A stretch of 64,000 nt of DNA from Zoogloeaceae bacterium G21618-S1 (GTDB lineage: Bacteria; Pseudomonadota; Gammaproteobacteria; Burkholderiales; Rhodocyclaceae), in the NCBI GenBank assembly GCA_027214125.1, contig JAPWHF010000010.1, forward strand, positions 186,001 to 250,000. Direction: 5' to 3'. Position 1 is the first letter of the stretch, and every line of letters begins with the position of its first letter. A program made the translations under genes and the position numbers. The notes beneath the pieces were generated by a model. It did no database searches. It saw nothing but the letters and a program-made list of their open reading frames with translations, and had not been told where the DNA came from. This document shows positions 16,044-53,523 of this stretch, piece after piece.

Positions 16044-17489
<1,446 letters not shown>

Positions 17490-25884: not shown

Positions 25885-25937
25885 AGGCATCCGAGCGGCG
25901 ATAATGCCGCTTTGCCAACGCTGACCGGGCGCATGAT

Positions 25938-26170
25938 CCTAGAAACCGCAGTTGGCCGCTTGTGCTCATGAGCAAGGTATTGAACATGCGAACCTTTTCG
26001 GCTTCGAGGCCGATCACCCGGTGGGTGATCGCGCTACGCGCCCGATTGCGCGCCTGGCGGGCCGCCTTGCTGCGTTGCTCCTCCTTACAGCGTGCAGGCT
26101 GTGCGTCGTCGCGCCTTGCCAGACAGCCCGCCAGGCGCACACTCGGGCGCGTCCAACTACGGTTTCCAGG
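25938..26170. repeat. Dispersed palindromic element, copy A
   Basis: A 233-base stretch that matches copy B (50577-50811) along its ends and its right half. Its ends are inverted repeats: CCTAGAAACCGCAGTTGG at the left and CCAACTACGGTTTCCAGG at the right. An inner perfect inverted repeat GCGCCTGGCGGGC (26050-26062) pairs with GCCCGCCAGGCGC (26126-26138). A separate 9-pair hairpin sits at 26011-26031 only in this copy. The last base directly precedes the cca start codon. It looks like a MITE-like or structured-RNA repeat; no transposase is present. Not a known family to me. Confidence 0.8.
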
Positions 26171-27274
26171 ATGAAAACATACATCGTAGGCGGTGCCGTG
26201 CGCGATGAACTGCTCGGCCTGCCGGTGCAGGATCGGGACTGGGTGGTCGTCGGCGGCACGGTCGAGGCCATGCTGGCGCGCGGCTTTACGGCTGTCGGCA
26301 AGGACTTTCCGGTCTTTCTCCACCCGCACACCCATGAGGAATACGCTCTCGCGCGCACCGAACGCAAGAGCGGTCATGGCTACACCGGCTTCGTTGTGCA
26401 TGCCGCGCCGGATGTGACGCTCGATGAGGATCTGCTGCGCCGCGACCTCACCATCAATGCCATGGCGCGCGGCGAGGACGGCACGCTGGTCGACCCCTAC
26501 GGCGGGCAGCGCGATCTGGCGGCCAAGTGTTTGCGCCATGTCGGCCCCGCCTTTGCCGAAGACCCGGTGCGCATCCTGCGCGTGGCGCGTTTTGCGGCAC
26601 GTTTCGACGGCTTCGAGCTTGCCGAAGAAACGCTGGCGCTGATGCGCCAGATGGTGGACAGCGGCGAAGCCGACCACCTGGTGCCCGAGCGCGTCTGGCA
26701 GGAAGTTTCACGCGGCCTGATGGCGCCCGCACCGATGCGCATGATCGAGGTGCTCGATGCCTGTGGTGCGCTGGCGCGTTGCCTGCCCGAGGTGGTGGCG
26801 CGTCGGCGGATCGACCCGCTGCTGCCGGGCGTGCTGCGCTGTGCTGTGGTTCGCGATCTGCCGCTGGCCCATCGCTGGGCGCTGCTGGTCGGCCACGAGG
26901 TGGCGGCCGCCGAATCGGCCAGTGCCCGGCTCAAGGTGCCGCTGCCCTGTCGCGATCAGGCGGTGATGCTCGCTCGCGATGGTGAAACCCTGTCCACCGC
27001 CAGTTCGGCCGTCGCCCGGCTCGAATTGCTCAGCCGCTGCGATGCCTTCCGCCGCCCCGAACGCCTCACCACACTGCTCGAAGCCGCCCCTTGCGCCCAC
27101 CCGGTGCCCGCCGCGGCGGTCGCCCGCTGGCAGGCCACGCTGGCCGCCGCGCAGTCGGTCGACGGCGGCGCGGTGGCGCGCCAGTGCGCTGACAAATCGG
27201 CGATTCCTGTCGCCATTCGCGGCGCCCGGTTGGCGGCGATCGAGGCTGCCGACGCGGCCGCCGGCCGTGGCTGA
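26171..27274 (+). CDS. cca: CCA tRNA nucleotidyltransferase
   Basis: Adds or repairs the 3'-terminal CCA of tRNA. The N-terminal head shows [26 protein letters not shown] (G-G and DxD motifs), then [10 protein letters not shown] and the fingers segment [16 protein letters not shown]. With 367 residues it is shorter than E. coli Cca (412), and no HD phosphohydrolase motif is found, so it is the transferase without the extra HD activity. ATG 26171 is the natural start; the frame stays open upstream through the dispersed element but that extension is not part of the family. The usual Shine-Dalgarno is replaced by the element's end TTTCCAGG. Confidence 0.92.
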
Positions 27275-50541: not shown

Positions 50542-50863
50542 GAGGTTTGCGCTGCGCTTAAAACGTTGCATTTTAACCTAGAAACGGCAGTTGACCGCTT
50601 GTGCTCCGGGGGTAACACCTTGCCTATGCGAGGGACTTACGGTATCGACAGCGATCACGAGGCCGACGAGAACGCTGCGCATCCGATTGCACGTCTGGCG
50701 GGCCGCCTGACTGCGTTGCTTCTCCTTGCAAGGTGCAGCTTGCGCGTCGTCGCGCCTTGCCAGACAACCCGCCAGACGCACACTCAGCTGCGCTCAGCCA
50801 CCGTTTCCAGGTTTGCGATTCTGGCACCGCCGCGCCGGCGGCGTTGCCAAACGGCTGCGCGTG
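50542..50863. other. Intergenic region holding element copy B
   Basis: This 322-base spacer between ribE and the VOC-protein gene (both minus strand) is mostly the dispersed element (50577-50811). The remaining parts, 35 bases on the ribE side and 52 on the other, show no clear promoter or FMN riboswitch structure. Confidence 0.6.
50577..50811. repeat. Dispersed palindromic element, copy B
   Basis: A 235-base relative of copy A (25938-26170). Ends: CCTAGAAACGGCAGTTG at the left and CCACCGTTTCCAGG at the right, again inverted. Inner inverted repeat CGTCTGGCGGG (50692-50702) with CCCGCCAGACG (50768-50778). Compared with copy A, the outer arms changed C-G (25947 with 26161) to G-C (50586 with 50802), and the inner arms changed C-G (26053 with 26135) to T-A (50694 with 50776). 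Pairing is thus maintained. Mismatches in the outer stem mostly become G-U pairs when the minus strand is read as RNA. Confidence 0.8.
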
Positions 50864-53505: not shown

Positions 53506-53523
53506 GGCCGGTTTCAGCCGGCC
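53502..53523. repeat. GTAGGG palindromic repeat, copy 2 (end of the PEBP gene)
   Basis: GTAG followed by GGCCGGTTTCAGCCGGCC, with the PEBP stop codon TAG as part of it. Compared with 11300-11321, the fourth stem base changed G to C and its partner C to G, so pairing is kept. It lies between two convergent genes and may help end transcription. Confidence 0.65.

Follow-up and report, generated by a model that had tools for sequence, protein, structure and literature searches.

ERIC is a small intergenic element whose transcript folds. Correia/nemis, BOX and other structured MITEs are likewise small intergenic elements with folding transcripts, as set out in the accessible part of PMC10969869; to the extent covered by that text, ERIC, Correia/nemis and BOX differ from the elements reported here, in which one fold is common to MITEs with unrelated ends. 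REP, REPIN and TIRtron elements, which go with RAYT enzymes, are imperfect multicopy hairpins in the portion of PMC3733652 that was available, and some of the elements reported here hold two inverted cores; in contrast to this group, DDE-type ends and duplications are present here, and RAYT is absent from three core-bearing genomes. attC sites and the attC-like OTH-22-1 (PMC8632094, in part) resemble the present core as structured hairpins in the mobile DNA of several phyla, but the attC boxes (RYYYAAC...GTTRRRY) occur on neither strand in any of the 48 or the 60 core rows. IS1380-like MITEs are similar in their inverted ends, 5-bp duplications, absence of a gene and presumed movement in trans, but differ from the elements studied here by the selected structured core, which is missing from the insertion sequences read.

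The nearest described system is MRSC-65-2, which the accessible sections of PMC11109978 present, as we find here, as a mobile or repeat structure from diverse phyla with one long stem, strong covariation and many copies per genome. On the minus strand, none of the 48 core rows has its conserved UYCCGG repeat, as given in those sections; on the plus strand, three of 48 have it, none of them twice. The same partial text counts 250 mobile/repeat candidates, and the present core could be among them. The core is not described in the titles and abstract openings of the literature searched (open-licence papers, supplements excluded), and no such core appears in the available portions of PMC10969869, PMC3733652, PMC2267715, PMC6382973, PMC6429828 and PMC8632094. 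In agreement with the original prediction, which knew of no named family, Rfam gives no match at its gathering score either in the window (the whole 64-kb stretch of DNA analysed) or in 12 loci with other end types; its best sub-threshold hit, which reaches 26.1 of 70 bits, is to a microRNA model. The element is a MITE, but one with a selected fold that is common to MITEs of different ends, and we conclude with good confidence that copies A and B combine a MITE with one strand whose fold is under selection.

Copies A and B as non-autonomous transposons

Copy A (25938..26170, plus strand, 233 bp) and copy B (50577..50811, plus strand, 235 bp) have the positions given in the original prediction. 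They had been predicted to be akin and palindromic, and an end-to-end alignment places them at 76% identity over their full length (E 1.4e-39). The RNA folds reach -146.9 kcal/mol for the minus strand of copy A (z -10.6), -128.3 kcal/mol for its plus strand (z -7.3) and -117.4 kcal/mol for the minus strand of copy B (z -5.1), with 0 of 200 shuffles as good in each case; the folding of both copies far exceeds chance.

The terminal inverted repeats are 17 bp long, and the copies of the family start with CCTRGAAACSGYAGTTG and finish with its inverse. In copy A they lie at 25938..25954 on the plus strand (CCTAGAAACCGCAGTTG) and at 26154..26170 on the minus strand, where they read CCTGGAAACCGTAGTTG; in copy B they occupy 50577..50593 (plus) and 50795..50811 (minus). 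The outer arms named in the original prediction, GAAACCG with CGGTTTC in A and GAAACGG with CCGTTTC in B, are present. Copy A is flanked by ATGAT at 25933..25937 and by ATGAA at 26171-26175, an imperfect 5-bp duplication, and copy B by TTTAA on the left and TTTGC on the right, so that its duplication is decayed or absent. The left half of copy A contains a side hairpin without assigned strand, GATCACCC/GGGTGATC at 26012..26030, which varies among copies; mean identity in this region (element positions 71-98) is 0.64. A gene at 26171-27274, which matches models of CCA tRNA nucleotidyltransferase below their cut-offs, begins with an ATG that directly abuts the end of copy A, and the sequence preceding this start codon is thus supplied by the element.

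The two copies first noticed are real, but the assembly holds five: the three further full copies in the window's own genome (G000) are 84, 80 and 73% identical to A. A search of relatives, as had been proposed, found matches at E <= 0.001 in 17 of 61 genomes (60 relatives and the own genome), including 16, 17 and 19 matching pieces in the sister genomes G003, G004 and G006 of the same genus (Denitromonas). The target duplication is 5 bp long and mostly WTNAW. Exact 5-bp direct repeats flank 28 of 42 hand-listed copies and are imperfect or absent in 14, A and B among them; this list leaves out L070 and L084, whose right end is absent, as well as L249, L253, L254 and L255. In the orientation of the element, the central base of the 28 exact duplications is G in 22, C in three and T in three. 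Among 22 Denitromonas copies, conservation is 0.84-0.86 at the ends, 0.78-0.84 in the right half with the core, and 0.58 in the left spacer. Other genera keep the right half but have different end letters, CCTAAAAACC in G028 and CCTACATTCC in G033, with both ends altered together.

Seven of 34 sites are common to more than one genome. Empty sites in relatives, for which the original prediction had proposed a search, exist: the flanks of a 135-bp copy of G006 join exactly in G004 and G000, with the 5-bp target present once. Within the window, the unoccupied site GCCGGTTTCAGCCGGC at 53507..53522 (no strand) matches the target of the G004 copy L060, with its duplication TTTAA; it is less exact as an empty site, since the G004 sequence next to the element is longer by a short stretch. 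At the site of copy A, before the gene at 26171-27274, the element measures 233 bp in G000 and 134 bp in G004 and G006, and another common site has 233 bp in G004 and 134 bp in G006. These 134-bp forms are without the core and have the appearance of a deletion between GCGCG repeats; similar forms occur in G028, a genome of another genus. The ends, duplications and empty sites identify copies A and B as non-autonomous transposons (MITEs).

Further size variants were observed. A form of 308-312 bp (L077, L090, L091, L092, L096) stands at different sites, flanked by 5-bp repeats; in it the right part of the stem is replaced by some 78 additional bases that contain further hairpins. Very short derivatives with intact ends measure 72 bp (L250 1015-1086, with exact ATGAT repeats) and 68 bp (L238 268-335), and a 444-bp element of G028 (L240 306-775) has good ends that enclose a partial core together with additional sequence and may represent a nested insertion. 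Two plasmid records match copy A and four match the element with GGTCTGTTGACG ends described below; phage records contain no match to copy A, and the exact core pattern occurs 0 times in viral_contigs.

On a Polaromonas plasmid, a 234-bp relative of the MITE adjoins a 1630-bp insertion sequence with the ends CCTAGAAACGGCAGTTA and CCTATTTTCGGCAGTTA and the duplication TTTAA. Its transposase matches Pfam PF13701 at 1.5e-24 and 86.5 bits (cut-off 34.7); the best NCBIfam match is IS1380 at 1.6e-45 and 155.5 bits, which lies under the cut-off of 180, and the enzyme is therefore called IS1380-like. Both the ends of the insertion sequence and an exact duplication of 5 bp were legible at L341, L342, L344 and L346, the last of which is repeated by L348; at the remaining insertion-sequence loci the pattern used found no end pair. 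The ends of copies A and B, shared with an IS1380-like insertion sequence and accompanied by 5-bp duplications, are hence those of a MITE. An insertion-sequence-derived MITE with a transposase, the finding that had been named as speaking against the original prediction, thus explains the ends but not the interior. The 13 insertion-sequence loci examined contain no core.

Relatives of the Polaromonas transposase were found at E <= 1e-40 in five of 150 genomes of the window's family, the own genome not being one of them. In a profile search of ten genomes, PF13701 matched only in G001 (same genus, with an internal stop) and G028, and not in G000, G003, G004 or G006; around the G001 and G028 genes there are no ends of the type found in copies A and B (F1), and a general inverted-repeat search gave nothing convincing. 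We infer that an enzyme of the IS1380-like kind moved copies A and B, none having been found in their own genome; on the type of the ends, such a DDE enzyme would move the copies in trans and insert them with a 5-bp, mostly WTNAW, duplication. Other candidates for a partner enzyme were rejected. Among solitary ends in sister genomes, L250 is the 72-bp derivative, L252 has one end only, and L251 adjoins a gene that reads, by eye, like an IS110-type transposase. Massilia ends, considered as transposase borders in four genomes, gave only short pairs, and a 4-kb end pair in G252 encloses frames that read by eye like flagellar and response-regulator genes, not like a transposase.

A conserved fold of the minus strand

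The inner arms of the palindrome are present in both copies as predicted: in copy A, CGCCTGGCGGG at 26051-26061 pairs with CCCGCCAGGCG at 26127-26137, and in copy B, CGTCTGGCGGG at 50692-50702 pairs with CCCGCCAGACG at 50768-50778. They belong to a structured core, a hairpin of about 75 nt. Its parts are a main stem of some 13 pairs, which is free in sequence and kept in pairing, a ladder in which Watson-Crick pairs lie between the G-A pairs, and a hairpin at the apex. The covariance model that had been proposed as a check was built (R1) and places the core on the minus strand at 26058..26131 in copy A (74.6 bits) and at 50699..50772 in copy B (73.0 bits). The third-best match of R1 in the window, at 16078-16161 on the minus strand, scores 16.3 bits and is probably due to chance.

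A pattern scan of one genome per species, covering 84,980 species, returned at least 115 stretches with at least 116 cores. The search pattern fixed GA, AGCAAC and GGCGCGA, left c1, c2 and d1 free for C or G, and allowed anything at d2; hence, the G-A and other fixed letters of the first alignment are imposed by the pattern, and covariation at c1-d1 and c2-d2 is not built in. Among the 80 distinct cores used for these counts (from the matches listed), c1-d1 is C-G in 54, G-C in 24 and C-C in two, and c2-d2 is C-G in 52, G-C in 27 and G-A in one.

The alignment comprises 48 of 60 non-redundant cores; near-identical cores and cores near locus ends had been removed earlier, and A and B are absent from the set of 60 because they are near-identical to sister copies. 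With the hand-drawn structure, 87.6% of the cells of this alignment are paired, as compared with 63.8% after shuffling and 28-47% when the structure is slid. Two-sided changes occur in all 13 of the 13 main-stem pairs. The apical helix, at 76.9% of cells paired, is poorer than the rest, since two apical classes are mixed in the alignment; RNAalifold, unaided, recovered the stem and the ladder and not the apical helix. Ten of the 24 pairs exceed the largest value reached by any column pair in 60 tree-aware simulations, as does one pair outside the structure (32-45). The unpaired columns 15 and 64 of alignment A2 also covary (35.9, rank 15, below the largest simulated value), A standing with C, and G or T with A; they may perhaps form a non-canonical pair. 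In 34 matches from outside the training set, pairing extends to 93.3% of cells and two-sided change to 22 of the 24 pairs, figures that are favoured by the fitting of this alignment to the model; two of three previously invariant pairs vary on both sides in this set, which represents 27 of 30 census loci (L258, L259 and L261 were left out).

The two-sided changes had been put forward as evidence for RNA pairing in both stems. For the inner arms and the core this holds, but the outer arms taken alone give no such evidence, because the enzyme recognises both ends and their concerted drift is expected to produce the same covariation. The remark that mismatches turn into G-U pairs on the minus strand was borne out in the main 13-bp stem, where this strand has 59 G-U as against 9 A-C combinations, marking the minus strand, which in copy A also folds better than the plus strand, as the folded one; its extension to RNA over DNA stands less firmly, as single-stranded DNA remains the main rival. 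Covariation and G-U over A-C show that the minus-strand fold is under selection, which means that this strand folds in the cell and that its folding matters.

Two simpler readings can be set against these data. One is that the core is an inert relic within a single MITE lineage, the palindromic nature of the element being by itself enough to keep the arms alike. The fully MITE-like ends and the drift of the copies agree with it, but it leaves unaccounted for the two-sided changes at individual ladder pairs whose neighbouring G-A pairs are conserved, the G-U strand bias, and the retention of the fold in MITEs with unrelated ends, and we regard it as improbable. The other is that the core is the coding sequence of a small conserved peptide, since an open frame spans it in both A and B. 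To this we assign next to no probability, in keeping with the original prediction: the apical part differs in length between copies by single bases, which shifts the frame from copy to copy, and the changes track the pairing.

Cores between unrelated ends

The titles of the pattern-scan hits listed include Massilia, Ottowia, Denitromonas, Methyloversatilis and Limnohabitans; metagenome-assembled genomes (MAGs) among them bear the labels, which can be wrong, of Accumulibacter, Thiobacillus, Rhodoferax, Lysobacterales, Myxococcota, Gemmatimonadales, Thermoanaerobaculia, Desulfobulbus and Klebsiella. In a census of one phylum, matches at E <= 1e-5 were obtained in 39 of the 299 genomes sampled; the corresponding figures are 27 of 239 for good genomes and 22 of 154 for genera. 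Copy numbers are lower bounds because at most 16 candidates per genome were scored.

An end type could be assigned to 73 of 116 cores among the matches listed; 25 of the 43 others lie near a contig or locus edge. Among these listed matches, F1 ends (CCT...GTTG) enclose 33 cores, 19 of them with exact 5-bp repeats, and F2 ends (GARCCTATYYCRGYAGG, Massilia) enclose 13, four with TAA or TTA. F5 ends (TGCACCGCCGTCGAAAT, Myxococcota MAGs) account for 10 listed cores, six with CTAG, F4 ends (TGTCCCGTTTGG) for seven, four with CTAG, and seven minor types for one or two cores each. CTAG, which is taken for the duplication in several types, reads as a palindrome and could instead be part of the ends. 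Another end type, GGTCTGTTGACG, accompanied by CTAG (see L298 and L300), was found in census genomes of another class family; small genomes of another class have a related form of it. The 26 F1-type rows of the alignment and the 22 others have a similar fold, a split based on end typing plus ten loci judged by eye, in which several of the others are without assigned ends. One fold is thus common to MITEs with unrelated ends from Proteobacteria and from MAGs labelled as other phyla. The original prediction had offered a MITE or a family of structured RNAs as alternatives; both apply at once, the ends being those of an IS1380-like MITE and the interior a covarying fold of one strand. Missing from the insertion sequences read and present with other ends, the core is a module of its own, and its occurrence in MITEs with unrelated ends makes it a passenger that is not tied to one transposase.

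Several elements of the GGTCTGTTGACG and related types hold two inverted cores. In the elements with two inverted cores at L272 1501-1685, L270, L271, L263, L273, L278 and L286, the second core has a similar outer loop (AAGGC/AACG), and in some Watson-Crick pairs replace the G-A ladder. In L276, around 1501-1700, core-like hairpins seem to stand in tandem repeat.

Two inverted cores would also fit an origin of the core as a hairpin that RAYT tyrosine transposases mobilised and that afterwards became trapped between DDE ends. A Y1 match was obtained in 17 of 25 genomes searched, and many core genomes have RAYT-type genes. Such an origin is nevertheless highly improbable in our view, given that no RAYT was found in the core-bearing genomes G028, G126 and G194 and that the surroundings of Y1 genes, at 30 loci, gave no credible core. 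The own genome has a Y1 (RAYT-type) transposase gene at G000:C65:252283-252609, with no core nearby.

Possible roles of the core

The likeliest mechanism, to which we give somewhat less than an even chance, is that the element is transcribed, by read-through or otherwise, that the minus-strand RNA folds, and that the G-A ladder is bound by a putative, widely conserved cellular factor, whereby carriers would be better tolerated or find it easier to spread. The core would then be a passenger module of presumed benefit to its carrier. Rod-shaped RNAs with tandem G-A pairs are commonly bound by proteins, and for this reason we favour a role at the RNA level over one as single-stranded DNA.

In the latter alternative, the minus strand would act as a single-stranded DNA hairpin in replication or transposition, recognised by a host protein or the enzyme as attC or REP hairpins are, and the core would aid the movement or survival of palindromic DNA. 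G-T wobbles fit such a hairpin too, and within the MITE the core forms the tip of a long hairpin whose closing stem is made by the ends. In two genera the core appears to have been deleted between GCGCG repeats, a loss that would be typical of a DNA palindrome, and for MRSC-65-2 the available text of PMC11109978 allows that the structure may matter as DNA. Several observations speak against it. In G028, the orientation of the core agrees with the direction of the replication fork in 10 of 16 cases (p 0.45), a count confined to this genome as the skew of G355 is too weak for use. The absence of RAYT genes from the three core-bearing genomes and of attC boxes from the 48 or 60 aligned cores weighs in the same direction, as does the core-less 135-bp copy at a site that is empty in two relatives; from this copy, the core may be dispensable for movement, unless it was lost after insertion. 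Single-stranded DNA is, in our judgement, a possible explanation, well short of an even chance.

The orientation of neighbouring genes, counted after four duplicates had been dropped, reveals no clear cis role for the core. Where both neighbours are known and co-directed, the core is antisense in 47 cases and sense in 28 (p 0.037); without Denitromonas, the count is 35 antisense versus 24 sense (p 0.19). In Denitromonas, the upstream gene is antisense to the core in 21 of 26 cases (p 0.0025), a bias that we attribute to the target WTGAW being itself oriented (22 G versus 3 C).

More broadly, the core might be a transposon-independent RNA module that many unrelated DDE ends have adopted and that has spread across phyla, its putative binding to a universal component favouring the carrier and the MITEs serving as its vehicles; we offer this as a tentative and rather doubtful proposal. 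The interiors of MITEs are mostly regarded as filler, and here a fold is kept by selection despite different ends and targets. This poses the testable question of what a transposon gains from an RNA, and the covariance model can be used to annotate intergenic repeats that are as yet unexplained.
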